From the NCBI RefSeq assembly GCF_000373105.1, contig NZ_KB890419.1:62001-126000 (forward strand): a DNA stretch of 64,000 nucleotides. Reading direction: 5' to 3'. Source of the DNA: Neolewinella persica DSM 23188 (lineage in GTDB: Bacteria > Bacteroidota > Bacteroidia > Chitinophagales > Saprospiraceae). Shown here in pieces: positions 15,506 to 59,433 of the stretch (its first letter is position 1; each line of letters begins with the position of its first letter). The notes under the pieces are model-generated. The model was not told the origin of the DNA, did no database searches, and saw nothing but the letters and a program-made list of their open reading frames with translations. The position numbers were made by a program, and so were the translations under genes.

Positions 15506-15596
15506 ACCCATTTCTACTTAGCGTAAGGTTCCGGAAACACAGCATGTTTCAAAATTAGTGAACCCTGAGATCGGTTTCACCATTAAATTAAGCATC

Positions 15597-17060
15597 ATGA
15601 AATTATCAAAAATAAGCGCCCTTTGCGGGCTACTCTTACTGTCTTTTTCCTGTAATGAAGTACTGGAGCGAACGCCACAAGGTGTTTACACGCTCGACAA
15701 TTTCTTTCAGACGGAGGAACAGGCGGTTCAGTCGGTCAATGCCGTCTATAATCAACTTCGCACGTGGCAAGTCCACGTTTTTAGCTTTATCGGGATGACG
15801 GATATTGTCAGCGATGATTCCGAAAAAGGAAGTTTCCCGTCCGACGGATTTTTTCTTCAGGAGGTAGAAGATTTTGAGCACACGCCTTCTAACGTTGCGC
15901 CAGCCTCGGTTTGGGAAGGCTACTATGTGGGCATTTTCCGGGCTAACCTGGCCATTAACCGTATTCCTGATGTGCCGGAAATGGATGAAGTGCTACGGAC
16001 CCGGTTGATTGCTGAAGCACAGTTTCTGCGCGGCTATTTCTACTTCAATCTTGTGCGTTGGTTTGGCGATGTCCCGTTGATTCTGGAACCATTTCCCGAA
16101 GAGTTTGCCATTCCACGTGCTTCTCAGGAGGATGTTTATGCACAGATTATTGCTGACCTGGAGGCCGCTGCGGCCGTACTTCCGCAAAAGTCGGCCTACG
16201 CCTCCGTTGACCTGGGTCGGGTAACGAAGGGAGCAGCTGAAGGCCTGTTGGCTAAGGTGCATCTAACCCGTGGTGAATACCAGCAAGCTGCTGATTTCGC
16301 ACTTGGCGTTATCAACTCCGGCCAGTATTCCTTAGCCCCCAGTTTTACCTCGATTTTCAGCCGGCCGGGCGAGAACGGGCCCGGCAGCATTTTTGAAGTG
16401 CAGGCCGCTGCATTGGAAACGGGCGGTGGCGGTAGCCAGTATAACGAAGTGCAGGGCGTGCGGGGAACGCCTAACCTCGGCTGGGGTTTTAACCGGCCAA
16501 GTGATGACCTGATTGCCGCTTTCGAGCCGGGAGACCCACGTCGGGAGGCAAGTATCCTTTACGTAGGAGAGGTATTGCCGGACGGCTCCGCTATCGTCCA
16601 GGATAACCCCAACATCGTCGGAGAGCGCTTTAACCAAAAAGCTTTTGTGGTGGATCATCCCGGAGGCAACGGTAACGGACCGGGTAATATTCGGATTTTT
16701 CGTTACGCCGACCTTCTGTTGATTGCTGCGGAGGCGCTTAATGAGTTGGACCGGGCCGGTGAAGCACTACCACTTCTGGAGCGGGTGCGGGCACGGGCTC
16801 GTAGCGGTAACAGCCGTATTCTACCCGTAGTAACAACGACTAACAGGGCCGAGCTGCGTACTGCTATATTACGGGAACGCCGGGTGGAGCTTGCGCTGGA
16901 GCAACACCGCTGGTTTGACTTAGTCCGTACTGGCCGCGCTGCAGCAGCAATGCAGGCACTGGGCAAAGCCTTTGTGGAAGGAAAGCATGAGCTGTTTCCC
17001 GTTCCTCAGGGGGAGATCGATCTTAGTGAAGGTGCTTTGACGCAGAATTCTGGATATTGA
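15597..17060 (+). CDS. SusD/RagB-family glycan-binding lipoprotein
   Basis: Surface lipoprotein partner of the preceding SusC, 487 residues. ATG at 15597 (MKLSKISALCGLLLLSFSC, lipid-modified Cys19) is chosen over an upstream in-frame GTG at 15558. Typical motifs are DNFFQTEEQAVQSVNAVYNQ near the start, AEAQFLRGYFYFNLVRWFGDVPL and the TPR-like core, RYADLLLIAAEALNE, and the C-terminal RERRVELALEQHRWFDLVRTG block. The protein caps the SusC barrel and delivers glycan to it. It is the last gene of the + strand locus; a long hairpin fills the whole gap to sprA, which converges from the other strand. Confidence 0.93.
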   Translation: MKLSKISALCGLLLLSFSCNEVLERTPQGVYTLDNFFQTEEQAVQSVNAVYNQLRTWQVHVFSFIGMTDIVSDDSEKGSFPSDGFFLQEVEDFEHTPSNVAPASVWEGYYVGIFRANLAINRIPDVPEMDEVLRTRLIAEAQFLRGYFYFNLVRWFGDVPLILEPFPEEFAIPRASQEDVYAQIIADLEAAAAVLPQKSAYASVDLGRVTKGAAEGLLAKVHLTRGEYQQAADFALGVINSGQYSLAPSFTSIFSRPGENGPGSIFEVQAAALETGGGGSQYNEVQGVRGTPNLGWGFNRPSDDLIAAFEPGDPRREASILYVGEVLPDGSAIVQDNPNIVGERFNQKAFVVDHPGGNGNGPGNIRIFRYADLLLIAAEALNELDRAGEALPLLERVRARARSGNSRILPVVTTTNRAELRTAILRERRVELALEQHRWFDLVRTGRAAAAMQALGKAFVEGKHELFPVPQGEIDLSEGALTQNSGY

Positions 17061-17062
17061 GT

Positions 17063-17209
17063 GAATGGGAGAATGAGTGAAGGGTAGAATGCGTGAATAG
17101 CTGCCGCAAGTACCGTTCGCAAAGCTTCGCTTGCTCACCCTGGCGAACAAGCGAAGCGACGTGAGTGGTAACAGCGGCAGCTATTCTCCCATTCGTCATT
17201 CTCCCATTC
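17063..17209. repeat. Long palindromic intergenic element, GAATGGGAGAAT family (copy 1)
   Basis: A giant hairpin fills the gap between susD and sprA. There is a perfect 14-bp outer stem (17063-17076 with 17196-17209), a perfect 12-bp stem (17095-17106 with 17175-17186) and a perfect 10-bp inner stem (17124-17133 with 17148-17157). The core is shared, in inverted orientation, with the element at 27606-27757: the 16-mer CGCAAGTACCGTTCGC (17105-17120) recurs there exactly. It may act as a bidirectional terminator, but the shared core suggests a dispersed element. Confidence 0.8.
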
Positions 17210-17210
17210 T

Positions 17211-20200
17211 CTACTGGAGCTGGAAGCGTACCACCATTCCTCCACTTGCCGCTGTCTGCGGGAAACCGAGGGGGTTAAACGGTGTCGTTTTGCGGTAATC
17301 GAAGAACGCCCGCAGACTGAGCAAATCATTGACCTGGTACTCGACGGACGGCGCCAGGGTAAAGACCCGACTACCTTCTACGATCTCGCGGATACGCGGG
17401 TTCAGACGGCTGGCGTAGGTTTTGCCATCCCGGAGGCTGAAGTTGAACTGGATGTCCATGTCACTGATGGACAGCCGGCCACCGGACTGGCTATTGCCAC
17501 GACCTCTTTGAGGGGTGCGCTGGTTCGCTTGTTCTTCCTGCTCCCGACTTGATGAACGCTTCTTTTTCTTGCCCTGCAGGAAACCAATCTGAACGTCTTC
17601 GAGTACAATGCCGAAACCACCAATAATCTCCTTGTTGACCTGCTCACTGAGCAGCTTACTGGTGATGTTGATGCTTTTGTTATCCTGGCTCTGGTAAGCA
17701 AAGTTGAAGGATAGTCCGTTTTGCAGTTCCGCTTCGATGGACAGCAGCGGTGCGAAAGATTTAGACTCCGTAATGTTCGGGATTTCGATGCGGGGGAAGT
17801 AGTTCAGGGTTACCGTATCGAAACCAATCAACGGTGCTGTGGCGTCCTCCAGTGCATCCAGGTAATCCAGGCTGGTGCCATAACTACTGATGGAGAAGGT
17901 AGACTGAAAACCGTGCTGAATGTTAACCCGGCGGAAAATCTCACCGAGGGCGCCGACTTTATCCAGCCCCGTCCAGGTCAATCGCCAGTTCGGACTAGCC
18001 TGCAGGTCGAATGGATTAAGGCTCACGTTGTTCGCGTCTTCTCCACGGTAGGCGGCGAGGAAGGCGGGCAACAGAACGTCTTGTTGGTTTGGTCCGTAGC
18101 CCTGGCTATAACCTTGCTGTGCCAGGTTCGTATCATCATGAAGGCTGGTGCTTCCTCGTTCCCGACCTAAACGCTGACTAACGATGAGTCGGTTGGACTC
18201 GAACGTTTCAAACAGCGTGTTCAAATTCGTTGTGTCCTGGTTGAAAAGAGAGTTGGCTCCGCCGTTGGTGAAGGAGAGGGCACCATCGCGGATCGGCACA
18301 GAATGGAGGAACGGTGCATTCGGAGTTTTCTCCTGGACTTTGAAGGTTTCCGTATAGTTTTCGGTGAAGGAGCGATCCATCGTTAATTCCAGGCGGAAAT
18401 CCTTAAAGGGTTCAATGGTTGCACTACCGTCCCAGGTTTTGGTGTAATTCTGGATCACGTCATTACTCTGGAAGGGGTTGACGGAGAGATAGCCGTTGTC
18501 GGCCAAATCCATCAGGTAATCATCTGGCCCACCTCGTTCTCCTTCAGAGAGTTCGCGGATTTTTGGTTGTATGCCAGCAACGAAGCCCCATCCCGGCGAA
18601 TCGAATCCAGCGGATTGACCAAAGAACTGCGGCTCGGGCAGGAAACCAGGAATAACGGTTTCTAAATCTTCGCTGTAGTTGACACGAACGCTCCGTAAGG
18701 CCAATAGCGGGCGAATGAGTAAGCGGGCAGCATTACTAGGCCCACTGTTCTTCTGCCGTTCCCGGGGTTGGGCTTCTCCTTCTTTATCGTCGGTATTTCG
18801 AGAACGACTGGCGGGTCGTCTACGCTGTGGCCGGTTGATCTGGCGGAGAAAGTCAAACTGGTCGTAGAATTTTTCAAAATTCAGGTTGGCCGTCAGCTGC
18901 CGGCTCTGGCTGTTCTGGATGCTGTTGCCTAAGCTGGATCCACCCGGCGTATTGGGGCCGGTAAGGCTGAGCGGCGAAGCGTTCCAGGTATACCTGGCCA
19001 GGTAGTTGGCGCGGACGTCGACAAAATCGAGGAAAGGCAGGAAGCGAAGTGGTAGCTGGTAGCTGGCGTTCAGGCTGTGGGTGTAAAGCTTGGGTCGACC
19101 ACCATCGGTCAGGTTGCTCCAAATACTGTCCTTACGGATCTGATCCCGTTCGGCTTCGGCAAACCTCAGCAGCTTGTTTTCATCCGGTTCGTCGATCGTG
19201 GCATTCATGTTGGCATTGAAGCCCAGTTTGATGCTTCGGGTGAAGTCCCAGCGAACATCATAGCTACGGTCCCAGGTAAATCGTTTGTTATAGAATGTAT
19301 TGAATTCGGGGTTGACACCGGCAAACCGGTATTGTGTAGTCGCAAAACTCCGGTTGAGGACATTGGCAAAGGTGAAGCTGTTCGGCAACGGGTTAATGTT
19401 GATCTCGCTGATCAACTTCAGGTATTTGCTCTTGATGCCTTTGAACGGCTCAATGGTTCCTCCCCGGCCTCTGCTGAAGGTGTAATCCAGCGCTCCGGTA
19501 TGGTCTTTGACCACCTCGCTTTGGATGAATGGGTCTGATCGTTCGGTCTTTGTAAAACCGTAACTGACACTAAAGTTGGCAGGGTCCAGGGGGCTGGGTT
19601 TTTCCCGGCGGGTAGCAGGGGTAATCCCGACGTTGTTCAGGGCAATAGCGGATATCTTGTTGATTTCCCGCGCTTGTTCCTGGATGGAGTCCCGAATCGC
19701 ATCGTTATCTGCGGAGTCAACTTTGTCCTTCAGCCTAATGTCCAGATCGTACGGGTCGTATTCCGGCGTACTGACGGTTTTACTATGCTGTAAATACAGC
19801 GGCAGGCGCAGTCCGAGCTGCTCGGGGAAGAATTTGTCAAGGGCAATATTACCCGCCAAATCATACCCTGCAGTCGCTTCCCGGGCACGTTCGGTCACGT
19901 TATTGTCCAGCGCCCCGAAACCAATACTACTATAGTTGGCTGCAGCGGTGAAGGTGCCCAGGTCCGCCAGTTGAATATCTGCCCGGGCAAGGCCGGCTAC
20001 ACCGCCCCTTTCGTCGAGCCCTTCGAGCCTGAGTTCGTTCACCCACACCTCTGAACTTATACCGTTGTTGTTCAGGTCGTCTTTTGCTTTTATACCGATC
20101 ATGAAGACTTTAACGAAGCCAAGGTTGGGGTTACCCCTCACCCTAACGGTGTGGCGAACACTACGGTCATAGGCTGTCACTTCACTCCCTTCCCGATCTT

Positions 20201-23200
20201 CGAACGGCAGAAATTCTTCAGAATAGTCCTGGGTCACCGAGGCGTTCTCATTATTTCGTCTCAACTTAAGGTCCCTGAGCAGCGTCAGCGGCAAGTCTAC
20301 CTCGTTAGCAATTGGCCAGACTTCCTGGGCATAGCAACTGGTGTTTTCAAGCCGGCCGTTGCCGGGGGGCAGAGGGCAATCGTTGATTGCCATCGTATCA
20401 GACATGCGCAGCGGCACCTCGTACTCGTAGTAGTTGGACTCGAAGTCGGAACCCATTCGGATAAAGAGACTGAGCTGGCCGGTATCCGGCCGTTCGAAGC
20501 GGCTGTCACCCAGTGGTTCTGCGTGGACGAACATTTTCAGGTCGTCGTACAGGCGAAGGTCCGTATCGGTGTATTTGAAAACTGCCCGGCGCGCGCCCGG
20601 TTGCAGGTTGTTCACTTTGAGCGCCAGCGATTGCTCGTTTTGCAAAGTATTTACTACGCCAAGGCTCTGCTCCCGACGAATGCCATTGGGCAGTACGTAA
20701 TTGAACGGCAGGCGGCTGCTGTTCTCTTCGATATTGACGGCATCGATATTGAATTCAGTATTGTCCTCACCACCGATCGATGGACCAGCCTGGAACTGGC
20801 GGGTATACCGACGCCAGCTGTTGCGGACTAATTCAAACTCCGCAAAGCGGAGAACCACCGGGGCTTCGAAGCCCCGCATGTACATCCGCATGAAGCGAAT
20901 GGAGCGGAAATCCTGGATGCCGCCAACGGCTTTCTTTTGGTCCGAGTTCAATGGTACACGAAAGCGGTACCAGATGCGACCGTTGTCAGCTTCCAGCCGG
21001 TCAGTGATAAAGGGTGTTGCTTCCTGGTCAAATTCCCTGGGATTTGCCCCGCTTCTGACGAAAGGAATTTCGTACTGAAAGTAGCTTTCTGATTCGTTCA
21101 GCGTGTTGTCCTGATTCAAATCCTCCGCATCCGGAAGGTTTGTAGTACTCTCCCTAATATTATTGCTGGTGCTGTTGTTGGCGGCGGAGTTTCCTTCCAT
21201 GCCGTTCCAGCCGCGGTAGCGGGTGAGCAAGTCGGTTCCGTCGGGGTAGCGGTCATTGTTGAAGTAGTAGAAGTTATCGTTGGAGGGGTCTTCAAGCAGG
21301 GCCTGGAAACCGACGCTGTTGCCTCCTCTGTAGGCATCTACGTAGTCGCTGAACTGGGTCGCCTCTATAGAGTCGCTTACACCATCCAGGCCAACGTCCT
21401 GCAGAATACGGGTAGCCGGATCATTGTCAAAGCCACGGGTGATTTGCTGTGCTACGGGGACGCGTGACCACACCGTCTGGTCAACCGGCCGGTTTGGGTT
21501 GGCCGGGCCAGGGAGGCCGTTTTCGAAAAATTTACGACTGTCCTTCAGGATGTCTTCACTTACGTTACCCAAGTTCAGGTAAAGGGTGCCCTGCTTCTGT
21601 GCACCATCCGGAGCGGCTTGCCGGGCATTTGTTGGGTCAAGGAAAGGGGAAAGCATCCAGAATTCAACAAATTCGATGTTGGAGCTTTGAAAATCGGGGG
21701 TCCGCATTTCCCGCATAATACCACCCCAACGGGTTTCCGGCTCCTCTAGCTTAATGGGGCAAAGTGGGTCTCCTTCAAGTACGGCTCCTTCAGTAAAACC
21801 TGGGTAGCCCTCGGGGAGGTCAAAGTTGTAAGGCCCCCGTTTTTCAGGGTAGAAGGCCATGTCAAAGGTGAAGAACGGAAGCCTTTGCCGTTGGCTGATC
21901 GGAATGTCGAGGTTAGGGAAGACTTCCTGTTGCGGTACGGCACTCGTGTAAATATTGTCTCCCGCTCCCGGGACATTGGTCCGGGAGTTTGGTTCCAGTC
22001 GGTACCAATTCAGTAGTGCCCGGTTAGCTCCCGACACCAGGCCCTGTTGCTGAGACTCCGGGAACAACGGGTTGTTGTTGCCGGCGTCATTTTGGGGGAC
22101 CGAAGCCAGGTACCATTGCTGGACCGGCGTCTTCAGGTCAATGGGGCTGGCGGTACCTTCAAAGTCATCGAGGTAAACGATACCGTCTTTGTCGCCCCTA
22201 GCCCGGTTAATGGCTTTACTGTGGCCAGGTTTGAGGAAGGCCGTTTCTGCCGTCAGGCTGATGTTACTGGGCGCGCTTGTGCTGAAAAACGGCAGCTTAT
22301 CCACCATCCGCGTCAGGAACCCGGATTCTTTCTGGAAGGTGGCATCGAAGCCGTAAATTTTATTATTAATCGGATCGTCTCCAAGGTTAACTTTCTGCGT
22401 AAATGGTCTTTCGAACAATTGCATGTAAGTACCGCCAATACTGAGGTTGTCATTGACCTCGTAATCGGCCCGTAAACCGATCATGGTTTTGGTTTGCAAA
22501 CTGAAGACGGTGTTGTCCTCGAAGCTTACATTGATTGGTACGCCAGAACTAAGGATAGCATCGTTCAGAATTCTGACCCGGCCGGTGCCATAGTCGACGG
22601 AATAATCCCGCCCTTCCTCCAACAGCGCACCACCAGCCGTTACCCGAACAGAGCCCGGAGGTAGGTTGTAGGTGCCGAGGCTGATCTCAGACTGCACCGA
22701 GGATTTATAGGAACCACGAATCACGAAGCGGTTTTTCTCTGGGAACTCCTGTGCCTGGAAAATAGTGGAATCGTAAAGCTCCTGATACACGAATCTGGCG
22801 TGGTCTTCCGGCCGCAATAATTCTTTGAGGTCGCTTCCGAAGGGCTCAAGCACCGGGAAGTAAATCCGACCGTTGGTAGGGTTGATGGTAACTCCAGGGA
22901 CAAAATCGAACACACCATCAGGTACCGGGTCATTCTGCACGTTCAACCGATCGAGGTTGAAAGCACGGATCAGGGGCAAGCCAGGGATGTAGTTCGTACC
23001 GTTTGGTTCGTCGGCCACCGGAACCGGAAGGAACCGTTTGAAACCCTCTCCCGGATCTTCGTACTGGATGTCAAGGCGAAAATCTTCCTCGTTTACCTGA
23101 TAGGCACCGAGAGAATAGACGTTTTTCATCATCAAGTCCCAGGTCGGCAGGCCTACCCTTTGGGTGGAAGACTTCAACATCTTAGTGAAAAGCACCTGGT

Positions 23201-24848
23201 TGCTGAAGCTGCTGGTGTCTTGCTGTGTTTGTCCGGGGCGGTTAGGAAGACCGTTGCTGGTGTTGTCGGTATTGACCGACAATTCACCTACTTTATAGAT
23301 GTTGCCATTGTACTTGTAGCGGTAAGAGACGGCGACCACCTGATCGGGTTGGACGTTGATGTTGAGGGAGATAAAACCCAATTCTGCGTTCACGGAGTAT
23401 TCCCGCGAGGTCAGTTTACGTGCGGATACTTTTTCGAAGTCCCGGATGGGTTGCAGGCCGAACTGGGCGGATTGCAGGGTCGAAACGGCCTGGTCGATGT
23501 CGCGAACACGGTCACCCAAACCAACCAGTTTACTGTACAGGTTGTTGGCGCCGTTATCCGGGAGCGGTACGCCGCCACATATTTGCTGATAGGCCGGGTC
23601 TGCACCAAAAGTGTTGACGGCTCCGGGGTTGGTCAGGTTCTCCACCGAAGGTTCGGCCAGGTCGGCCAGCGCTACGATGTCTCGTACTTCCAATACCTCA
23701 TTCCGGTCGTTGGTAATCCAGACTTCAATGTTCTCAGCGTGGAACAAAGAGTTGATCTGCGGGAGGTTTTCGAGGCTTTCCTCGTAGGTGCTGCGGTTGA
23801 AATGGCTGAGGAAAAAGTGACGGTTTTCGTCGTAGCTATCGGCATAGACCTGGAATTCAGACAGTAGGGCACCGCCTTCAATCGTCAGTTTTTCACGTTG
23901 GCTCCGCTGTTGACTGGCGATGGCGGTCAGTTTGAGGTGCCCGAATTGTAACTCGGTCTTGAGGCCGAACAGAGACTGAGCACCTTCGATGAGGGTACCG
24001 CGCAGCGGCAAGCTCACGTCTCCGGCCTCAATCTTGCGCAGGATGTCGTCTTCGCTGAAGGCCTCCGAGTTGTAATCGAGTTTGATTTGGTTGTCGAAGT
24101 TGAAAGTAGCGCCAGTATTGTAGTTCGTATTCAGTTTAAGCTTATCGCCAATTTGCCCGGTTACGTTCATCTGGATGTCCATGTCGAAATCGAAGATCGT
24201 GTTCTTACGGAAGCGTTCAACGATGAAGGGGTTGTCCTGAAACTGGTAGTTGAGACCAAAACTAAGGTCAACACCACCCTGTGGTTGGATGTCAATCTCT
24301 GTACCACCGAAAAGGTTATTGATCAGGTCGGGGTCCAGTTCAATATCGTCCAGCGGATCTCCAATGCTGATGGCATCCTCGGGATTTCCAACGCCACCAA
24401 GCTGCTTGAAGTAGCGGTTCTGGTCCTCTTTTTCACGGTATTTAAAGTACTCCTCGAAGGTTAGGTAAGTCGGTGGGCGAAAATCGATCTCCCCCAACTT
24501 TTCTCTAACGATGTAGGTTCCGGTGGCAGGATCATACTCAACGGTTTTTTGCAGGCTGGCCGGGTCACGCAGGTCAACTGAGTTACGGTTGGGGTCGGTG
24601 ATGAAGTCACGGTTACGGTCCTGGATAGGAGGGATGGTATCCGTTGGGTTCCTATTCACCTCACCAATAAAGCCCGGCAAGTCTTCACTTCTTACCTGAT
24701 TAGGCAGTGGCTGATAGGTGATGTGCCAAAACAGGCGCATCACCGCATCGTTAGCGGAAGCAGTTGATGCGGCCGGTTTAAGTGGGGAATAGGTGAAGTT
24801 AAGCGAGATTAGGGCAAAACCGAGTAGTAAAAGTAGCGTCTTATTCAT
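17211..24848 (-). CDS. sprA: SprA/Sov, type IX secretion outer-membrane translocon
   Basis: Giant barrel of 2545 residues that forms the T9SS export channel in the outer membrane; size and content match the SprA/Sov family (about 2400-2500 residues). A signal-type hydrophobic N-terminus (MNKTLLLLLGFALISL) is followed by a region with YLTFEEYFKYREKEDQNRYF, then the repeated SprA N-terminal-type domains with KLKLNTNYNTGATFNFDNQIKL and GLRADYEVNDNLSIGGTYM, many alternating beta strands, and a C-terminal strand region ending GGMVVRFQLQ. In this window it would export the sorting-domain proteins encoded at 108, 4178, 6071 and 43085. It lies 141 bases downstream of ruvA on the same strand; I recall the same neighbourhood in other Bacteroidota. 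Confidence 0.95.
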   Translation of the reverse strand: MNKTLLLLLGFALISLNFTYSPLKPAASTASANDAVMRLFWHITYQPLPNQVRSEDLPGFIGEVNRNPTDTIPPIQDRNRDFITDPNRNSVDLRDPASLQKTVEYDPATGTYIVREKLGEIDFRPPTYLTFEEYFKYREKEDQNRYFKQLGGVGNPEDAISIGDPLDDIELDPDLINNLFGGTEIDIQPQGGVDLSFGLNYQFQDNPFIVERFRKNTIFDFDMDIQMNVTGQIGDKLKLNTNYNTGATFNFDNQIKLDYNSEAFSEDDILRKIEAGDVSLPLRGTLIEGAQSLFGLKTELQFGHLKLTAIASQQRSQREKLTIEGGALLSEFQVYADSYDENRHFFLSHFNRSTYEESLENLPQINSLFHAENIEVWITNDRNEVLEVRDIVALADLAEPSVENLTNPGAVNTFGADPAYQQICGGVPLPDNGANNLYSKLVGLGDRVRDIDQAVSTLQSAQFGLQPIRDFEKVSARKLTSREYSVNAELGFISLNINVQPDQVVAVSYRYKYNGNIYKVGELSVNTDNTSNGLPNRPGQTQQDTSSFSNQVLFTKMLKSSTQRVGLPTWDLMMKNVYSLGAYQVNEEDFRLDIQYEDPGEGFKRFLPVPVADEPNGTNYIPGLPLIRAFNLDRLNVQNDPVPDGVFDFVPGVTINPTNGRIYFPVLEPFGSDLKELLRPEDHARFVYQELYDSTIFQAQEFPEKNRFVIRGSYKSSVQSEISLGTYNLPPGSVRVTAGGALLEEGRDYSVDYGTGRVRILNDAILSSGVPINVSFEDNTVFSLQTKTMIGLRADYEVNDNLSIGGTYMQLFERPFTQKVNLGDDPINNKIYGFDATFQKESGFLTRMVDKLPFFSTSAPSNISLTAETAFLKPGHSKAINRARGDKDGIVYLDDFEGTASPIDLKTPVQQWYLASVPQNDAGNNNPLFPESQQQGLVSGANRALLNWYRLEPNSRTNVPGAGDNIYTSAVPQQEVFPNLDIPISQRQRLPFFTFDMAFYPEKRGPYNFDLPEGYPGFTEGAVLEGDPLCPIKLEEPETRWGGIMREMRTPDFQSSNIEFVEFWMLSPFLDPTNARQAAPDGAQKQGTLYLNLGNVSEDILKDSRKFFENGLPGPANPNRPVDQTVWSRVPVAQQITRGFDNDPATRILQDVGLDGVSDSIEATQFSDYVDAYRGGNSVGFQALLEDPSNDNFYYFNNDRYPDGTDLLTRYRGWNGMEGNSAANNSTSNNIRESTTNLPDAEDLNQDNTLNESESYFQYEIPFVRSGANPREFDQEATPFITDRLEADNGRIWYRFRVPLNSDQKKAVGGIQDFRSIRFMRMYMRGFEAPVVLRFAEFELVRNSWRRYTRQFQAGPSIGGEDNTEFNIDAVNIEENSSRLPFNYVLPNGIRREQSLGVVNTLQNEQSLALKVNNLQPGARRAVFKYTDTDLRLYDDLKMFVHAEPLGDSRFERPDTGQLSLFIRMGSDFESNYYEYEVPLRMSDTMAINDCPLPPGNGRLENTSCYAQEVWPIANEVDLPLTLLRDLKLRRNNENASVTQDYSEEFLPFEDREGSEVTAYDRSVRHTVRVRGNPNLGFVKVFMIGIKAKDDLNNNGISSEVWVNELRLEGLDERGGVAGLARADIQLADLGTFTAAANYSSIGFGALDNNVTERAREATAGYDLAGNIALDKFFPEQLGLRLPLYLQHSKTVSTPEYDPYDLDIRLKDKVDSADNDAIRDSIQEQAREINKISAIALNNVGITPATRREKPSPLDPANFSVSYGFTKTERSDPFIQSEVVKDHTGALDYTFSRGRGGTIEPFKGIKSKYLKLISEININPLPNSFTFANVLNRSFATTQYRFAGVNPEFNTFYNKRFTWDRSYDVRWDFTRSIKLGFNANMNATIDEPDENKLLRFAEAERDQIRKDSIWSNLTDGGRPKLYTHSLNASYQLPLRFLPFLDFVDVRANYLARYTWNASPLSLTGPNTPGGSSLGNSIQNSQSRQLTANLNFEKFYDQFDFLRQINRPQRRRPASRSRNTDDKEGEAQPRERQKNSGPSNAARLLIRPLLALRSVRVNYSEDLETVIPGFLPEPQFFGQSAGFDSPGWGFVAGIQPKIRELSEGERGGPDDYLMDLADNGYLSVNPFQSNDVIQNYTKTWDGSATIEPFKDFRLELTMDRSFTENYTETFKVQEKTPNAPFLHSVPIRDGALSFTNGGANSLFNQDTTNLNTLFETFESNRLIVSQRLGRERGSTSLHDDTNLAQQGYSQGYGPNQQDVLLPAFLAAYRGEDANNVSLNPFDLQASPNWRLTWTGLDKVGALGEIFRRVNIQHGFQSTFSISSYGTSLDYLDALEDATAPLIGFDTVTLNYFPRIEIPNITESKSFAPLLSIEAELQNGLSFNFAYQSQDNKSINITSKLLSEQVNKEIIGGFGIVLEDVQIGFLQGKKKKRSSSREQEEQANQRTPQRGRGNSQSGGRLSISDMDIQFNFSLRDGKTYASRLNPRIREIVEGSRVFTLAPSVEYQVNDLLSLRAFFDYRKTTPFNPLGFPQTAASGGMVVRFQLQ

Positions 24849-24952
24849 ATGTCAATCCTTACCAAAAGCCCGGGGAAAATTCGGGCGGTCCATCGAAAAC
24901 GAACGCGAAGGGGCGAAAAAGTTTCCAGGGATCAATTTTAAGATTAGAGCGA

Positions 24953-24967
24953 CCGGCGAAAAGCCGG
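24953..24967 (-). terminator. Small hairpin after ruvA
   Basis: CCGGC-GAAAA-GCCGG, a perfect 5-bp stem 23 bases beyond the ruvA stop and ahead of sprA. There is no clear T run, so termination or attenuation between the two genes is only possible. Confidence 0.35.
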
Positions 24968-24989
24968 GTGGGCAGCAAAAAAGGTGAAA

Positions 24990-25583
24990 TCAGGAAGACA
25001 ATTCCCGGAGAGCGAGTTTGATGATCTCCTCCGGGGTACCCAGGTCCGGCTTTGCAGCAAAAACCCGGTTAAGGGCACGCTGCACAGCAGGGCGGGCAAA
25101 ACCTAAATTCACCAAAGCAGATAACGCCTCCGTTCGGTGGGTATTGCTTTGAGAGGACAGCATTGTCGGGGAGGCGAAGCTTTCTTTCATCATCTTGTCC
25201 TTTAGGTCAATAATAATGCGCTGGGCAGTCTTTGGGCCAATACCCTTGACTTTGCGAATGCTGGCCACATCCTCGCCGAGGACGGCCGCTTGAAATTCTT
25301 CCGGATTCATACTGGAAAGCACGACGAGTGCCGTGGCCGGACCAACCCCGTTCACCCCAATAAGGAGCCGGAAAAAACTTCTCTCCGTTTCGTCATGAAA
25401 TCCATACAACGTCTGTTGATCTTCCTTGACGTGGAAGTGTGTCAGCAGTTTTACCTGCTCCGCTTTTTCAATCTTAGTGTAAGTATACAGACTGATGTTG
25501 ACGTGATAACCGAGCCCCCCAGCTTCCACGACGACGAAACTCGGCGTTTTGTGGGCAATCGGGCCTTTTATGTAGGTAATCAT
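24990..25583 (-). CDS. ruvA: Holliday junction branch-migration protein RuvA
   Basis: Holliday-junction-binding subunit of RuvAB, 197 residues, the usual length. The OB-fold N-terminus (MITYIKGPIAHKTPSFVVVEAGGLGYHVNIS) is followed by the helix-hairpin-helix region with LIGVNGVGPATALVVLSSM and IRKVKGIGPKTAQRIIIDLKDK, and a C-terminal domain III (EALSALVNLGFARPAVQRAL) that contacts RuvB. It acts in the cytoplasm in recombination and fork repair. A Bacteroidota-type promoter lies just upstream on the minus strand. sprA follows on the same strand. Confidence 0.97.
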   Translation of the reverse strand: MITYIKGPIAHKTPSFVVVEAGGLGYHVNISLYTYTKIEKAEQVKLLTHFHVKEDQQTLYGFHDETERSFFRLLIGVNGVGPATALVVLSSMNPEEFQAAVLGEDVASIRKVKGIGPKTAQRIIIDLKDKMMKESFASPTMLSSQSNTHRTEALSALVNLGFARPAVQRALNRVFAAKPDLGTPEEIIKLALRELSS

Positions 25584-25610
25584 TTAGAGGGATGATTTTT
25601 TTTGAGGCCG

Positions 25611-25637
25611 CAAAGGTAAGGCTTAATGGATTGACAA
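25611..25637 (-). promoter_or_regulatory. Bacteroidota-type promoter of ruvA
   Basis: Read on the minus strand, TTG (25635-25637) is followed by 16 bases and TACCTTTG (25611-25618), an exact TAnnTTTG box. It lies 28 bases upstream of the ruvA start. The spacing is slightly shorter than the usual 19-20. Confidence 0.65.
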
Positions 25638-25676
25638 TAAGGGGGTTGTTTTTTCTCAATGGGTTATTTGTAGCAG

Positions 25677-25694
25677 GGCGGGGCCGCAGGTGCA
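25677..25694 (-). repeat. 18-bp interspersed repeat, copy 2 (C variant)
   Basis: GGCGGGGCCGCAGGTGCA on the + strand, the reverse complement of TGCACCTGCGGCCCCGCC. Intergenic. Confidence 0.8.
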
Positions 25695-25816
25695 AGGACG
25701 GGTAAAGGGCTGTAAGCCCGGCCTGTTTCCCCTTTTTACCCTTGCTTTCAGAGGTGTCCGGACATTGGGGGCACCCGCCGGGTGCCGGATCAGCCCGCTA
25801 GCCCTCCACCAAATAT

Positions 25817-25834
25817 TGCACCTGCGGCCGCGCC
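25817..25834 (+). repeat. 18-bp interspersed repeat, copy 3
   Basis: Exact TGCACCTGCGGCCGCGCC, in opposite orientation to copy 2 and 122 bases away, so the two could form a stem. Confidence 0.8.
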
Positions 25835-25898
25835 ACCCGCTTCTTTTACGAACATTCCGTGGAAATAAACCTTTTCTTTGCTGCAACAAACATCATTT

Positions 25899-27599
25899 AT
25901 GTCCGTCGACCCTACTGCCTCTTTTCCCGATTTCGCCTATGAACGTCCTGACCTGGAAGCCAATGAAGCAGCCTTTAGGGCCGTTTTAGAAAAACTGGAA
26001 AGTGCCGGCTCCATTAATGAAGCAATTGCTGCGGTGGAACAAATCGACAGCATCAGAGCCGCAGTTGCTACAGCCTACAACATCTGTTATGTACGGTACA
26101 GCATTGATACGCGGGATGAATTCTACAAGGAGGAGAAAGCCTGGTTTGATCAGCACCTGCCAGCCACCGAGGCCTGGCGAATGGATTATTACCGGACCTT
26201 AATCTCGAGCGCTCACCGCGAAGCACTGGAAGCAAAGTTTGGCCGGCAACTCTTTAATACGGCGGAACTGAGTATCAAAACCTTTCAGCCTGAATTGATC
26301 GAGGATCTGCAAGCGGAAAACAAGGGATACAGTGAATACACCGAGCTGAAAGGCGGTGCGCAAATCGAACTGGAGGGAACAACCTATAATCTGAGTAGCA
26401 TTATCCCGCTGGAGCAGGTTGCCGATCGTGCCGCCCGTAAACGGGCCAGTAAAGCGAAGTGGGACTGGATGGGAGAACACCAGGAACGAATGGAGGCCAT
26501 CTATGGAGACCTGGTAAAGCTTCGGCACAGCATGGCCCAGAAACTAGGGTACGAAAATTTCGTTCCCCTTGGTTATGCCCGGATGAACCGCACGGATTAT
26601 GGGCCAGAGCAGGTCGCTAACTTTCGTAAGCAGGTAAAACAGTTTATCGTGCCGATTGCTAAGGACCTGGCCGCCAAACAGGCGGAACGGATAGGTGTGG
26701 ACCGGTTGCGGTACTACGACAATAATTTTCGTTTTCCTGACGGTAATCCAACACCGGTTGGCGAAATGGGCGATACCATTGCCGCAGCACGAAAACTTTA
26801 CGATGGACTAAGCGAAGAAACGGGGTTCTTTTTCCGGATGCTGGAGGATCGTAAGTTGATGGACCTGGAGTCAAAGGACGGAAAGGCCACCGGTGGTTAT
26901 TGTACTTACATCAATGATTACGGAGCCCCCTACATTTTCTCTAACTTTAACCGGACGAGCCACGATGTGGACGTGCTCACCCATGAGTTCGGCCATGCCT
27001 TTCAAGTGTACAGTAGCCGACACCAAAAGCCAATGGAATACAACTGGCCAACTTACGATGCTGCCGAAATCCATAGTATGAGTATGGAATTCTTCGCCTA
27101 CCCGGGCGTCCCCGACTTCTTTGGTGATGACGCGAAAAAGTATCTGTACGGCCACCTGGAAGGAGCGATCCGTTTCTTGCCCTATGGCTGTGCTATTGAT
27201 GAATTCCAGCACCTGGTCTATGAAAACCCGCACTGGACTGCCGCCGACCGCAACGCTGCCTGGAAGCGCCTGGAAGCGGAATACCTGCCACATATCGATT
27301 ATACGGACCATCCTTTCCTGTCACAAGGGACTTACTGGCAAAGCCAGCTCCACCTCTTCGGCATGCCGTTTTACTACATTGATTACTGCCTGGCGCAAAT
27401 TTGTGCCTTCCAGTTCTGGCTAAAAGACGAAGAGAACCACGAAAAAGCCTGGGAAGACTACATCCGCCTCTGTCGCGCCGGAGGCTCAAAAGGCTTCCTG
27501 GAATTGGTCACACTGGCCGGGCTGGAGAATCCCTTCCTCGATGGGGTGATGGAAAAAATTGCGGCTAAGGTGACGGAACGATTAGGGGAGTTGAGTTAG
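25899..27599 (+). CDS. M3-family oligoendopeptidase
   Basis: Zinc metallopeptidase of 566 residues (thimet/oligoendopeptidase F-like) that degrades short peptides in the cytoplasm. ATG at 25899 (MSVDPTASFPDF) is preferred to the upstream TTG at 25878, which overlaps the presumed promoter. The catalytic HEFGH motif is at residues 362-366 within DVLTHEFGHAFQVYSS, with the downstream Glu of EIHSMSMEFFAYP as the likely third zinc ligand. The N-terminal helical region and the ending LVTLAGLENPFLDG fit the oligoendopeptidase subfamily. No signal peptide. It stands alone, divergent from ruvA, and is followed by a large hairpin element. Confidence 0.93.
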   Translation: MSVDPTASFPDFAYERPDLEANEAAFRAVLEKLESAGSINEAIAAVEQIDSIRAAVATAYNICYVRYSIDTRDEFYKEEKAWFDQHLPATEAWRMDYYRTLISSAHREALEAKFGRQLFNTAELSIKTFQPELIEDLQAENKGYSEYTELKGGAQIELEGTTYNLSSIIPLEQVADRAARKRASKAKWDWMGEHQERMEAIYGDLVKLRHSMAQKLGYENFVPLGYARMNRTDYGPEQVANFRKQVKQFIVPIAKDLAAKQAERIGVDRLRYYDNNFRFPDGNPTPVGEMGDTIAAARKLYDGLSEETGFFFRMLEDRKLMDLESKDGKATGGYCTYINDYGAPYIFSNFNRTSHDVDVLTHEFGHAFQVYSSRHQKPMEYNWPTYDAAEIHSMSMEFFAYPGVPDFFGDDAKKYLYGHLEGAIRFLPYGCAIDEFQHLVYENPHWTAADRNAAWKRLEAEYLPHIDYTDHPFLSQGTYWQSQLHLFGMPFYYIDYCLAQICAFQFWLKDEENHEKAWEDYIRLCRAGGSKGFLELVTLAGLENPFLDGVMEKIAAKVTERLGELS

Positions 27600-27605
27600 T
27601 AAATA

Positions 27606-27757
27606 TTGAATGAGAGAATAATTGAATGATAGAATAAGCTGCCGCTGTTTCCACTCACTGCGCTACGCTTGTTAGCTAAGGTGAGCAAGCGTAGCGCAGC
27701 GAACGGTACTTGCGCTAGCTTATTCACTCATTCCCTCATTCAATTATTCTATACCTT
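27606..27757. repeat. Long palindromic intergenic element, GAATGAGAGAAT family (copy 2)
   Basis: A hairpin of about 150 bases: perfect 15-bp outer stem (27615-27629 with 27736-27750), 9-bp stem (27632-27640 with 27717-27725) and perfect 14-bp inner stem CTGCGCTACGCTTG (27658-27671 with 27686-27699). Its core is the inverted counterpart of the element at 17063-17209, with 16 identical bases at 27699-27714. It lies between two genes of the same direction. A TACCTTTA box (27752-27759) at its edge may be the -7 element of the next gene. Confidence 0.8.
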
Positions 27758-27783
27758 TACGAAGTCTTAATCCCAAATAAACC

Positions 27784-35179: not shown

Positions 35180-35260
35180 TCAGTATTGGTGTCTTAGCTG
35201 TCAGACAAACTTTTGTCGGATAGCCGGAGCGCCCGTTTGACTATTGTTCCGCATTTCCAA

Positions 35261-35317
35261 ATAGCACCAATAGACCAATAGACCAATAGCACCAATAGAC
35301 CAATAGCACCAATAGTA
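35261..35317. repeat. ACCAATAG tandem word repeat (copy 1)
   Basis: Six exact ACCAATAG units start at 35266, 35274, 35282, 35291, 35299 and 35308, giving an 8- or 9-base period. Related arrays lie at 40396-40493 and 55448-55500. Located in the 237-base gap after the ARH gene and before marR. Confidence 0.8.
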
Positions 35318-35416
35318 CTAACATACCCCCATAATCCCGAACCGTAGACTCTTATTACCGGATGGTCGATCAATTAGGCCAGACCTGAACACTTTGCTTT
35401 TCTATTCGTTAACTCG

Positions 35417-35905: not shown

Positions 35906-37094
35906 TCGTAATATTCCACGTACCATCTTTTCTATTATTCTAGGTGCACTGATTTTGGCTGCTGGATGGTTCGGTTGGGGCTACCTGGCGAGCCAGAAAG
36001 CCGCACCAGTGAAGAAGGAGATTCCCAAGCGGATCAAAACGGTGGATGTGGAAACAATCGCCAACGGGAAAATTGCCTCCAAGCTCGATGTACAGGGCCG
36101 GTTGGAGGCATACAATAAGATCGCCCTGTTCACCGAAGTAGGCGGTGCCGTAAAAACGTCCAAACCCTTTAAAAAAGGAACTTACTTCAATAAAGGAGAA
36201 GTTATGATGCGGGTGGACGATGCTGAGGCCCGCCTCAACCTGCAGGCACAAAAAGCCACGCTGATGAACGCCGTGGCAATGATGATGCCTGATCTGAAAA
36301 TCGACTACGCTGAAAGCTTCCCCGCCTGGGAAAACTACCTTAGTAGCTTTGACATTGATGCGCCCATCAAGGCGATGCCAGAGGCAAAGAACCAACGCGA
36401 AAAGCTCTTCGTTGCCGGCCGCAATCTCTACACCCAGTACTACTCGATCAAAGGCGTGGAAGAGCGACTAAGTAAATACGTGCTTTACGCTCCGTTTAGC
36501 GGAGTGCTCACTACTGCGGATATCAACGAGGGAGCCGTCATCCGCCCCGGGCAACAACTTGGTGAACTTATGGCAACGGGCTACTACGAAATGGTGGCTA
36601 CTGTACCCCTGAGTCAGCTGGATTTTCTCCAGCCAGGAGGCGAAGTAAAACTGTACAGCGAAGACATTAAAGGCTCCTGGACCGGAAAAATCCGCCGGAT
36701 CAGCGATCAGATTGATGCCGGAACGCAAACAGTCAACGTCTTTGTAGGTGTTTCCGGCAAGAACCTCCGGGAAGGGATGTACCTGCGTGGAGAGGCCGAT
36801 GCGCGTGTACTCGACGATGTGGTGGAAATTGACCGTAACCTGTTGATCGATGAAGGTGAAGTCTACGTGGTGAAGAACGACACCTTGCTGGCCCTTGTAC
36901 CCGTGAACGTCCGGAAGTTCGACCGCAACACCGTCATCATAAGCGGACTGCCAACCGGGAGTAAATTACTGACCAGCGACGTAGCCGGGGCCTATGACGG
37001 TATGCGCGTGAAACTGAATGATACGGAAACTTCCAGTAAGAAAACGGCCAATGAAAAGGCTGCTTCAATGACGGATAAACCGGTTTCAAAATAA
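35898..37094 (+). CDS. RND efflux periplasmic adaptor (membrane fusion protein)
   Basis: Periplasmic adaptor of 398 residues joining the RND pump to a TolC channel. ATG at 35898 overlaps marR by 8 bases; the TTG six bases earlier is less likely. One N-terminal membrane anchor (IFSIILGALILAAGWFGWGYL) precedes the lipoyl/barrel-sandwich halves (ALFTEVGGAVKTSKPFKKGTYFNKGE and YVLYAPFSGVLTTADINEGAVIRPGQQL), with a short helical segment between them, then the beta-barrel and membrane-proximal domains (GTQTVNVFVGVSGKNLREGMYL). The C-terminus is a low-complexity Lys/Ser/Thr tail. A hairpin repeat lies between it and the pump gene. Confidence 0.93.
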   Translation: MSNRNIPRTIFSIILGALILAAGWFGWGYLASQKAAPVKKEIPKRIKTVDVETIANGKIASKLDVQGRLEAYNKIALFTEVGGAVKTSKPFKKGTYFNKGEVMMRVDDAEARLNLQAQKATLMNAVAMMMPDLKIDYAESFPAWENYLSSFDIDAPIKAMPEAKNQREKLFVAGRNLYTQYYSIKGVEERLSKYVLYAPFSGVLTTADINEGAVIRPGQQLGELMATGYYEMVATVPLSQLDFLQPGGEVKLYSEDIKGSWTGKIRRISDQIDAGTQTVNVFVGVSGKNLREGMYLRGEADARVLDDVVEIDRNLLIDEGEVYVVKNDTLLALVPVNVRKFDRNTVIISGLPTGSKLLTSDVAGAYDGMRVKLNDTETSSKKTANEKAASMTDKPVSK

Positions 37095-37100
37095 TATCAA

Positions 37101-37166
37101 GTTGTCGGGTTATCAGGTTATTAATCGCTCAGAAGCGATAACCGGGTGACCCGATAATTCGACAAC
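37101..37166. repeat. GTTGTCG/GACAAC hairpin repeat inside the efflux operon (copy 1)
   Basis: Outer stem GTTGTCG (37101-37107) with CGACAAC (37160-37166) and inner stem ATCGCT (37124-37129) with AGCGAT (37134-37139). It fills most of the 86-base gap between adaptor and pump genes. Members of the same word family lie at 59434-59560 and 62497-62576. Confidence 0.75.
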
Positions 37167-37180
37167 TCGAAAAACAAGCG

Positions 37181-40100
37181 ATGAAAAATTTCATAGCCTA
37201 CTTCATAAAGTACCCCGTTGCGGCAAACCTGATCATGTTCGGGATCCTGTTGATGGGGGTCGTGAGCCTGTCGCAGATGAAGGCCACTTTTTTTCCGGAA
37301 TTCAAGAGCCGGACCATCAACATCCAGTTGATCTACCCTGGTGCCAGCCCGGAAGAAGTAGAAGAAGGCATCATCAATAAAATCGAAGAAAACCTTAAAG
37401 GACTGACCGGTGTGGAACGGTACACCAGTATTAGTTCGGAGAACAGCGGCAGCGTTATCGTGGAAGTGCTGAAAGGTTACGATACGGAACTCATCCTGCA
37501 GGATGTGAAGAATGAGGTAGATCGTATCAACTCCTTTCCGGTGGGTATGGAACCACCAGTGATCTATAAGCAAGAATCGCTTGGGCGAGCTATCTCATTT
37601 GCACTGACTGGCGACGGCGTCAGCCTCGCCGCACTGAAGCGCGCCGCCCGTCAGGTGGAAGACGACCTGCTGGCCATCGACGGTCTTTCCAAAGTAGAAC
37701 TTTCGGGCTTCCCCGACGAGGAGATCGAAATCGCTTTTCGGGAATCCGACCTGCAACGCTTCGGCATGACCTTTCAAGACGCTTCGGAGGCGGTACGCCG
37801 CACCAACGTCGACATTACGGGAGGTACGGTAAAGGGAGAACAGGAGGAATTGCTCCTCCGGGCCCGTAACAAAGAATACTACGCCGATGGCCTCCGGGAC
37901 ATCATCGTAAAGACAACGCCCGACGGCGGAACGGTACGCCTCAACCAGGTAGCAACCGTCCGTGACCGCTGGGCTGATAAGCCCAACCGGACTTACCTGG
38001 ACGGTTCTCCTTCCGTCAACGTCAACGTTCAGAATACGCTGGAGGAGGACATGCTCGCCATTACCGATAACGTTAAAGAGTACCTTGAAGAATTCAACGC
38101 GAAGAACATCGACATCCGTGCTGAGATCGTTAGCGACGCCAGTATCACCCTGCGCCAACGGATCAATACCCTGATCCAAAACGGTTGGCAGGGTTTCCTC
38201 ATCGTTTGTCTTTTGTTGGCTGTCTTCCTGCACTGGCGACTCGCCTTCTGGGTGGCCCTGTCGATTCCGATCAGTTTCGCCGGTATGTTCATCATCGCCA
38301 ACGCACTGGACATTACACTCAACGTCATAAGCCTCTTCGGCATGATCCTGGTGATCGGTATCCTGGTCGACGATGGTATCGTGATCGGTGAGAACATCTA
38401 CAGTTATCATGAGAAGGGGATGCCGCGCATCCGCGCGGCCATCGACGGGACAAATAACGTGCTCGGTGCCGTTTTCGCGGCCATCATCACTACGGTCATC
38501 GCTTTCAGTAGCTTCTTTTTTCTCGACGGCTCTTTGGGTGATTTCTTCCCGGAAATGGCAACGGTGGTGATCTTCTCGCTGGTCTTCTCCCTCATTGAGG
38601 GGGCCATTATCCTGCCAACCCACGTAGCCCACAGTAAAGCCCTGGCTAAAGGAGCCAAGCCTAATGCGGTGCAACGGACTTTCGACAAGTTGATGGACTT
38701 TATGCGCGACCGGATGTACGGTCCCGTACTAGCCTGGACCATGCGAAATAAATTTATTTCCCTTTCCTTGTGTATTGCGATCCTGTTCTTCAGCTTTGGC
38801 GTTGTTCAGGCCGGGTGGGTGAAAACGACTTTCTTTCCCATTATCCCGGGAGATGAAGTCAGCATCACCTTACAGCTGCCGGCCGGTACGCCGGAAAGCC
38901 AGACAAAGTTCCTGCTCGACCAAATCGCGAATACGGCCGACCGCGTCGGCAAAGAGATCAGTACCGAAGCCTTTGGCGACGGCGGCAAACAGGCAATAGA
39001 ACGGATTGAGGTGAAGGTTGGCCCTACCACTTACCAGGGCAGCATTACCGTAGCGATGATCCCCGGCGAGGACCTTGAGCCGGTCACCCAGGAGCAAATG
39101 ACCCGGGCTATTCGCCAGGCCGTAGGCCCGATCGATCAGGCGGAGGTGCTTTCCTTTGGTGGCCGCTCCTTCTTTGGTAAGCCAGTAAGTGTAAGTTTGG
39201 TGGGTAGCGATATCAAAGAACTTGCCAAGGCCACTGCCGACATTAAAGCTGAACTAGCCCTGATGCCGGAGCTGGCAGACGTTGTGGATAATAACCAGGA
39301 AGGCCTGCGGGAAATGAACATTACCCTGAAGGAAAAAGCCCGCTACCTTGGAGTCGACCTGCAGGACATCGTTGGGCAGGTCCGTTCGGCCTTCTTCGGT
39401 ACCGAAGCACAGCGATTGCAGCGGGGAGAAGATGAGGTGCGCGTTTGGCTCCGTTACGGTGAAAACGAGCGCCGGAGCCTTGCTGATTTGAATAATATGC
39501 GCATCCGGTTACCGGGTGGGGTAGAGTACCCGCTTTCGGAAATCGCTGAGTTTACGCCGCAGCGCGGCGTGATCGGCATCAACCACGTTGACGGTAAGCG
39601 GGAGGTGAAGGTGGAAGCTGACATCAGCAATAACTCCGTTTCCGTTACCGACATCAACGCTCAGGTGCAGGATGAGATTCTGCCCGTTGTTCTTGACCGG
39701 TACCCCAGTGTCAGTACGGTTGATGGGGGGCAGGTGCGGAACCAGAAGAAAACCGGCGCCTCGCTTGGCCTGGTCATGCCGATAGTTTTCGGCCTGATGT
39801 TCTTCGTCATTGCACTTACCTTCCGGTCCGTCCTTCAGGCACTGATGCTATTCCTGCTCATTCCGTTCGGATTCATCGGTGTTATTGGCGGGCACTGGCT
39901 GATGGATAAGCCGATGTCTCTGTTCTCTGGCCTGGGCATCATCGCATTGATCGGTATCATCGTGAATGATGGTCTCGTTTTCATTGCCACCTACAACGAT
40001 AACCTCCGGGCAGGGATGCCAATGATGGAAGCCCTGGCCGAAGCTGGCCGCAGCCGCTTCCGACCCATCCTGCTTACTTCGGTGACGACCTTCGCTGGCC

Positions 40101-40387: not shown

Positions 40388-40395
40388 GTTCGTCT

Positions 40396-40493
40396 TATTG
40401 GTCTGTTGGTGCTATTGGTCTGTTAGGCCGCACCAATAGTCCAATAGTATAATAGACCAATAAGACCAACAGACCAATAGTACCAAAAGACCA
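40396..40493. repeat. ACCAATAG-word hairpin (copy 2)
   Basis: The gap between pump and nucleotidase genes contains TTATTGGT and CTATTGGT words on the left (40396-40419) and ACCAATAG-type words on the right (40432-40439, 40473-40480), so the + strand can fold into a long imperfect hairpin. It occupies almost the whole 108-base gap. Confidence 0.75.
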
Positions 40494-40495
40494 AC

Positions 40496-41041
40496 ATGCG
40501 CATCATCATCGACATGGACGAAGTAATGGCCGATAATTTCCCCTCCTTTCACCGGGCGGCCGAGGAGCGCTTTGGCCGTGTCGTCCGCCCGGAAGAGTAC
40601 CGGGGAAAGAAGTTGTACGACTTGCCGGGCCTTGCTGAAGTTCGAAATGTTCTGTACGAGAAAGGGCATTTCCGACACTTGCCCGTTATCGAAAACGCGG
40701 TAGAGGTTGTTCGGGAATTATATGAGCACTACGAAGTGTATATCGTGACTACGGCAACGGAATTCCGGTACAGCTTCCTGGACAAATACGAATGGCTGGA
40801 GGAGCACTTTCCGTTTATCCACCACAGCCGGATCGTATTCTGCGGCGACAAAAGCATTGTACACGGGGATTTCATGATCGACGACAAGGCTAAGAACCTC
40901 GACTCATTTGAGGGGGTAGGCCTACTCTTTACTTCCAGCCCTAACCTAAACGAGCGGCGGTACCACCGGGTGAATAACTGGCTGGAAGTCCGGGATTACT
41001 TCAGGCAGGAACGGAAGGGCCGCATAGCACAAGAAGGATGA
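40496..41041 (+). CDS. 5'(3')-deoxyribonucleotidase-like HAD phosphatase (NT5C family)
   Basis: Small HAD-superfamily phosphatase of 181 residues. Motif I is DMDEVMADN, where the first Asp is the nucleophile and the second the acid/base; the substrate region PGLAEVRNVLYEKGHFRHLPVI follows, then motif II (VYIVTTATEF) and motif III/IV (DKSIVHGDFMIDDKAKNL). This matches the 5' nucleotidase, deoxy (Pyrimidine), type C family, which dephosphorylates deoxynucleoside monophosphates in the cytoplasm. Its stop overlaps the start of the GtrA-like gene by four bases. No functional link with the efflux genes is evident. Confidence 0.88.
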   Translation: MRIIIDMDEVMADNFPSFHRAAEERFGRVVRPEEYRGKKLYDLPGLAEVRNVLYEKGHFRHLPVIENAVEVVRELYEHYEVYIVTTATEFRYSFLDKYEWLEEHFPFIHHSRIVFCGDKSIVHGDFMIDDKAKNLDSFEGVGLLFTSSPNLNERRYHRVNNWLEVRDYFRQERKGRIAQEG

Positions 41042-47359: not shown

Positions 47360-47406
47360 CCTTTAAAGTACTTAGGGGAAAGTATTTAAGATGCAGCATT
47401 AGTGCT

Positions 47407-47448: not shown

Positions 47449-47502
47449 AAACCTGATTACGGAGTTCTGACGCCTTAAAACTGAACCTTGAAAACTGTAC
47501 TC

Positions 47503-49978: not shown

Positions 49979-49985
49979 TTGGCCG

Positions 49986-59429: not shown

Positions 59430-59433
59430 GGCG

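Follow-up and report, generated by a model that had tools for sequence, protein, structure and literature searches.

Dispersed intergenic palindromes with short-repeat arms in Neolewinella persica DSM 23188

Two palindromic elements and their neighbouring genes

The window, a stretch of 64,000 nucleotides from one contig of N. persica DSM 23188, contains two large intergenic palindromes, at 17063-17209 and 27606-27757, where the original prediction had located them from the sequence. The first, element A, lies between a SusD-family gene on the + strand (15558-17060) and sprA on the - strand (17211-24848; TIGR04189 SprA). Its left arm is an array of GAAT-type octamers (17061-17098, + strand, 38 nt from the stop to the core) that starts right after the TGA (17058-17060) of the SusD-family gene, and its right arm (17183-17210, + strand, 28 nt from the stop to the core) is an inverted octamer array that touches the stop codon of sprA. 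The core between these arms is an imperfect palindrome of 84 nt in the consensus orientation (17099-17182, + strand), which scored 106.6 bits with R1, a covariance model made from 29 cores. The left arm of element B, again of GAAT-type octamers (27606-27636, + strand, 37 nt from the stop to the core), begins a few bases past the TAG of an M3 oligoendopeptidase gene (25878-27599; TIGR02289). Its core (27637-27720) has the orientation opposite to that of A (98.9 bits on the - strand, 55.9 on the + strand), and its right arm, an inverted octamer array (27721-27757, + strand), lies upstream of a 4a-hydroxytetrahydrobiopterin dehydratase (PCD) gene that starts at 27784 (Pterin_4a, PF01329). Both elements had been thought to fill their gaps almost entirely. 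Element A spans its whole gap, from the + strand TGA to the stop of the - strand gene at 17211, and B takes up most, not all, of its 184-nt gap (27600-27783); as contact with stops was seen in only part of the copies described below, gap filling is a habit of part of the family.

An inverted-repeat search joined 17099-17182 and 27637-27720 as inverted arms of 84 nt that are 85% complementary, which confirms the predicted inverted core of ~80 bases, and the exact 16-mer CGCAAGTACCGTTCGC was found in A and its reverse complement in B. With element A as the blastn query, B was retrieved from the genome with E = 2e-28, and the likeness of the two elements is therefore not due to chance. The GAAT-rich outer stems of 14-15 bp were also recovered (GAATGGGAGAATGA/TCATTCTCCCATTC in A and AGAATAATTGAATGA/TCATTCAATTATTCT in B), but they are more than stems, namely degenerate octamer arrays that vary between copies and species. 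As DNA, both elements fold more stably than their dinucleotide shuffles (z = -8.6 for A and -7.2 for B), with none of 200 shuffles of each reaching the same stability. No terminator-like site (GC-rich stem-loop followed by a T-run) was found within A or B by a scan that allowed loops of 3-8 only, and the single match near B falls outside the element. A tRNA was the only match in the Rfam scan of the window, which gave no Rfam family for the elements.

Size, core and arms of the family

Element A had at least 56 blastn matches with E <= 1 in the genome (40 of the 156 first-look candidates were scored). The R1 search of the same genome (7.08 Mb) gave at least 140 strand hits with E <= 1, which correspond to at least 122 distinct places, and at least 104 places with E < 1e-4, a lower bound since 150 of 3369 candidates were scored. 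Other copies are thus present in the genome, and the proposal of a dispersed palindromic element of ~150 bases was borne out. Core matches were found in five of 40 genomes (own genome included), all of them within the genus Neolewinella, from which 21 genomes were searched, and in none of the 19 genomes of other genera. Four Neolewinella genomes contain many core copies (G000, which is the own genome, G003, G007 and G014), and G006 has a single weak core fragment of 31 nt (E = 7e-4). An exact-pattern scan of named genome contigs, which possibly did not include the own genome, returned eight stretches, from Neolewinella aurantiaca SSH13 and the MAG Lewinella sp. ANT-68. Element A had no blastn match in phage and plasmid collections, and an exact-pattern scan of viral contigs, sensitive to close copies only, gave no match either. 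In G014 and G003, half cores with spacers also form tandem arrays with a unit of ~70-112 nt (L059 240-870, L060 1000-1480 and L061 85-370).

About 800 kb of the own DNA was sampled, partly chosen for containing hits, and densities are not to be extrapolated from it. Among 60 places, 54 were used for arm classes (six with scores <53 or too long were left out), of which 42 were scorable on both sides and 12 were not. Base pairing was analysed in 45 copies, the genomic context in 43 copies flanked by called genes on either side and scoring at least 45, and target duplications at 55 of the 60 places.

The core is an imperfect palindrome with the order A-B-C-D-loop-B'-C'-D'-A'. Its signature blocks are conserved (92% for B, 93% for D and 91% for both B' and D') and are asymmetric rather than simple complements. 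In the outer block pair, CCGTTCGC opposite GTGAGTGG, 34% of the cells are G-T wobbles when read on one strand and A-C when read on the opposite strand, and the inner pair, GCTCACC opposite GGCGAAC, has the reverse strand pattern of wobbles and mismatches in 33% of the cells. Each strand therefore pairs well at just one of the two places. Double changes keep the pair in 11 of 13 cases in stem A and 15 of 18 in stem C, whereas one-sided changes outnumber the double ones (48 versus 13 in stem A, 104 versus 18 in stem C). RNAalifold, applied to 29 copies, found double changes in two of 14 pairs and a covariation term of +0.37, i.e. weak covariation. A pseudoknot reading, in which B pairs with B' and D with D', was Watson-Crick in 83% and 76% of the cells, respectively; it was dropped because double changes were too few (three for B/B', two of them paired, and one for D/D', not paired).

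The arms are degenerate arrays of the octamers GAATnnnn or GAGTnnnn, rarely TAGTnnnn, inverted across the core. Left and right arms were alike in 40 of the 42 scorable copies and mixed in the other two. On a poorly resolved core tree (two of 51 inner branches starred), GAGT arms cluster (10 changes versus a shuffled mean of 16.3; 1 of 500 shuffles as low) and GAAT arms show no clustering (14 changes versus 15.8; 107 of 500 as low). In the displayed copies from other species, the same core is enclosed by GAGTCGG-like heptamers (G014), AACATTT-like heptamers (G003) or GAGTnnnn octamers (G007). The arms close all three reading frames in 52 of 110 cases, compared to 36 of 588 intergenic controls.

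Inverted arrays of 7-9-nt units are a frequent feature of the own genome, with 35 in 864 kb versus 3, 3 and 0 after alphabet maps that break complementarity and none in a control of shuffled 12-mer blocks. The core lies inside 13 of the 15 palindromic arrays of GAAT or GAGT type and inside none of the 20 arrays of other words, and 22 of the 35 are core-free, two of these being of GAAT type. Beyond this 864-kb sample, two TAGT-armed copies contain the core (L027), and the arms are mixed at L136:9439. Judged by eye, several TAGT-armed arrays show a second, related centre (GCTnCCGCA...TGCTCACTnCGTTCG), and L124:12429 resembles a hybrid of the main core and this TAGT-array centre.

Further arrays were observed in the window. 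Core-free palindromic octamer arrays with the word TTGTCGGG/GACAACCC fill intergenic gaps at 37094-37181, 59424-59564 and 62492-62580, and octamer arrays of ACCAATAG type lie at 35250-35332, 40389-40497 and 55449-55514, the second of which (40389-40494) extends from just past a stop codon to just ahead of an ATG. Inverted intergenic arrays of CAGTATTC-type short units are found at 47400-47490 and 49812-49986.

Placement, orthologous loci and mobility

Among the 43 copies with neighbouring genes, which were called with a simple purpose-built codon model, 42 are intergenic and the remaining one overlaps a doubtful ORF. Tandem, convergent and divergent gaps hold 21, 12 and 10 copies, respectively, near their shares of spacer length (49, 26 and 25%). 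In the 21 tandem gaps the orientation is even (10 same, 11 opposite), which makes a function of one particular RNA strand less likely. The core edge is within 45 nt of the stop in 22 of 45 stop-facing cases and within 45 nt of the start in none of 41 start-facing ones (21 of 43 and 0 of 39 without two copies in gaps >1500), compared to 10.4 (sd 2.0) and 4.8 when copies with an assumed arm length of 26 nt were placed at random in these gaps. In the 22 close cases the arm therefore begins at or just past the stop. The idea that the element supplies the stop codon was dropped for the checked cases (sprA, fabI, the M3 peptidase and the SusD gene). The stops of sprA, fabI and the M3 peptidase are native, since the corresponding genes of relatives terminate at the same residue or very close to it; the SusD_RagB profile was matched to its own last position and up to residue 500 of 500 in the product of the SusD-family gene. 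The copies behind stop codons may have been retained because they are harmless there or because they act at mRNA 3' ends.

The orthologous sites were represented by 61 congener loci (205 kb) at four sites: the PCD gene beside B, sprA beside A, the gene behind fabI and a NAAT transporter gene. R1 detected no core in these 61 loci, its single match having an E of 0.84, at chance level. At site B both neighbours are kept without the element in G018, G007 and G014, and at the NAAT site two-sided synteny was found in one relative, G018. At the fabI site the upstream gene is kept in five relatives and the downstream gene in none, and in G002 fabI is followed by an octamer palindrome without the core. 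The SusD neighbour of site A is kept in no relative. As far as the sequences indicate, the absence of the core from orthologous loci, taken alone, would fit gain and loss equally.

A very abundant motif, GGCGnGGnCGCnGGTGC, was also observed in the window and the genome. It occurs in the window (TGCACCTGCGGCCGCGCC) at 5939, 12556, 25816, 29239, 41658, 47341 and 58556, and inverted at 13182, 25672, 34904, 41456 and 60652. It has 173 copies in 862 kb of the own genome, where its reversed form has none; 17 of 20 pairs within 400 nt face each other, and it is present in 23 of the 61 congener loci. It is reminiscent of uptake-sequence or terminator-linked repeats.

The original prediction placed the elements with MITE- or REP-type units, for which target duplications and a matching transposase were sought. 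No duplication signal was obtained at 55 free copies, the longest word shared by the flanks averaging 5.55 versus 5.65 for mismatched pairs, although the ill-defined ends of the arms could hide a duplication that is short or of variable length, and A and B have no recognisable terminal inverted repeat. The free copies terminate in variable octamer arms, and other copies lie nested within a MITE with 19-bp ends. As for a REP-type tag, GTAG or CGTC occurs within the first six bases, on either strand, in none of 54 cores, and the GGTAGC found at the 3' end of 22 of the 54 has the wrong polarity. The genome has seven Y1 transposase genes, none with a core within 1.5 kb, and a RAYT link was rejected since all alignments of their flanks to the core scored below the maximum of 40 shuffles. 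Within the genus, Y1 genes are present in 20 of the 21 genomes, and yet the core-rich G007 has one match barely above the cut-off. The family is therefore probably not of REP/RAYT type, nor, given the missing duplication signal, are the free copies likely to be MITEs.

Some Y1 genes have palindromes of their own. At L032 and L035, around position 1500, these lie on one or both sides of the gene (GTAGCGAGGGG..., GGCCGGAGGTCCGTCTC...) and look RAYT-REP-like by eye, and at L031 (1130-1430) a 25-nt unit (GGACTACGCTTGTTGCTGTACCCCA) is repeated in tandem about twelve times immediately upstream of the transposase gene.

The MITE was recognised from four core copies that are alike over up to 318 nt (78-95% identity), past the usual length of the element, and whose outer ends are the 19-bp inverted repeat ACGCGAATCAAGCGCTAAA. 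With up to three mismatches, this repeat occurs 29 times forward and 29 times reverse in the genome, compared to 0 and 1 for the reversed pattern. From these 58 end matches, 30 were fetched as loci and 16 pairs of terminal repeats were read; after leaving out three with unrelated interiors (L205, L210 and L212), 13 copies were aligned (L192 1501-1637 and 12 relatives). In five of them (263-279 bp) the core is complete and identically placed and oriented, two of these having an extra 24 nt inside it; two contain a partial core (163 and 202 bp) and six no core (137-149 bp). A 5-bp target duplication is perfect in seven of the 13 and has four matching bases in three more. The whole-core copies with 19-bp ends and 5-bp duplications indicate that a genuine MITE holds the element and moved with it, so that the MITE class applies to a minority of copies. 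Among the loci fetched, none contained a transposase gene with ACGCGAATCAAGCGCTAAA ends. The alignment suggests that the partial-core copies arose by later loss of the core. Paralogues with a whole, partial or no core provide concrete pairs for studying gain and loss of long bacterial palindromes.

Origin of the elements and comparison with known repeats

Elements A and B are probably copies of a non-autonomous hairpin element that spreads by copy and paste. The mobile unit would consist of the 84-nt core with its inverted arms of 7- or 8-nt repeats, ~130-160 nt in total, and the whole of it, arms included, would have multiplied independently in each lineage. A trans-acting enzyme probably handles the element as folded single-stranded DNA, a suggestion drawn only from the palindrome and the strand asymmetry. 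The arms would be the fast-changing part of the unit, and those of each species may reflect its founder copies. The element would persist at sites where the damage is small, frequently immediately after a native stop codon; there it may double as an mRNA 3'-end hairpin. The MITE with 19-bp ends and 5-bp target duplications, which carries the whole core in five copies, is a side route. This reading is supported by the dispersed and intergenic places in both orientations, the contact with stops, the absence from orthologous loci, the agreement of left and right arms, the clustering of GAGT arms and the 13 of 15 GAAT/GAGT arrays that hold the core. The lack of target duplications, of an identified transposase and of linkage to Y1 genes counts against it, as do the GAAT arms, unclustered on the poorly resolved core tree.

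The totally different arms around one core in some species also fit a core that inserts into foreign arms. According to this explanation, which we regard as unlikely, the 84-nt core alone would be mobile and would insert into the hairpin tips of pre-existing inverted 7- or 8-mer arrays, the arms being its target. Arms that differ around one core between species, and sometimes within the genome (TAGT at L027, mixed at L136_9439), would agree with this, as would the core-free arrays of the 864-kb sample and the one behind fabI in G002. However, the distribution of the core over the arrays would mean that nearly every supposed target with one of two words is occupied and none with any other word, and GAGT arms are partly inherited together with the core.

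A further and likewise unlikely scheme is a modular hairpin system, in which the core would target the tips of species-specific 7/8-mer array hairpins and cores and arms of different families would recombine, as the hybrid at L124:12429 and the mixed arms at L136:9439 might indicate. The transition-type asymmetry of the core, in which G-T wobbles on one strand correspond to A-C mismatches on the opposite one, would then tell a single-strand enzyme which strand to take.

It is very unlikely that the elements are functional RNAs or mRNA 3'-end elements (terminators or stabilisers) selected at their sites. Copies flush with stop codons, strong hairpins and the pair-keeping double changes in stems A and C would suit such a role, but the orientation is even in spite of the different pairing of the two strands, and divergent gaps contain 10 of 43 copies. 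The missing terminator-like site at A and B, the weak covariation, the large excess of one-sided changes, the lack of an Rfam family and the orthologous loci without a core also argue against it. Mobilisation as a REP/REPIN family by a Y1 (RAYT) transposase of the own genome, which ~100 copies of a dispersed intergenic hairpin and seven Y1 genes would fit, is very unlikely in view of the missing 5' tag, the distance of the core from these genes and the near absence of Y1 matches from core-rich G007.

The elements belong to an orphan palindrome family, and any mechanism has to explain species-variable tandem-repeat arms around one core together with the contact with native stop codons. The family resembles known bacterial palindromic repeats and fits none of those tested. 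Among the open-access titles listed on palindromic or octamer repeats of Lewinella, Neolewinella, Saprospira-type bacteria and Bacteroidetes, none described it. The following comparisons refer to excerpts of the cited papers.

Like REP/REPIN sequences and their RAYTs (PMC3116915, PMC2817692, PMC3733652), the family consists of high-copy extragenic hairpins (at least 104 places, 42 of 43 sampled copies intergenic) with inverted halves that fold on single strands, but its core has 84 nt instead of 20-40, has no 5' GTAG or CGTC and was not found adjacent to Y1 genes. The CGTC-tagged REPs are likewise a palindrome family without a dedicated transposase (PMC3733652), whereas the present family lacks the CGTC tag, is larger and has repeat arms. 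REPs of E. coli also occur near stop codons, 446 of 4,072 predicted REPs lying within 15 nt (PMC12306157), and an invasion of hairpin elements has been described in sponge mitochondria (PMC2800124). The TAACTGA heptamer repeats, present in some Bacteroidetes too, similarly form short-unit arrays in spacers, and their forward repeats place stops in every frame and may overlap stop codons (PMC4679880). They differ in being direct repeats that mostly point at start codons in the genome described, and the excerpt of PMC4679880 mentions no core or palindrome. Correia/NEMIS and RUP MITEs are also small, non-autonomous and dispersed (PMC2229807), and a local MITE carries some of our copies; unlike them, the free copies show no duplication or fixed terminal repeat beyond the variable arms.

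The nearest known element in size and habit, compared by description only, is YPAL/RU-2 of Yersinia, which is ~168 bp long, mostly palindromic and intergenic, has no terminal TA, is found at filled and empty sites in relatives and is co-transcribed with upstream genes (PMC2229807). YPAL duplicates its target (3-26 bp), whereas no duplication was detected at the free copies here, and the octamer arms of the present family have no mention for YPAL in the excerpt of that paper.
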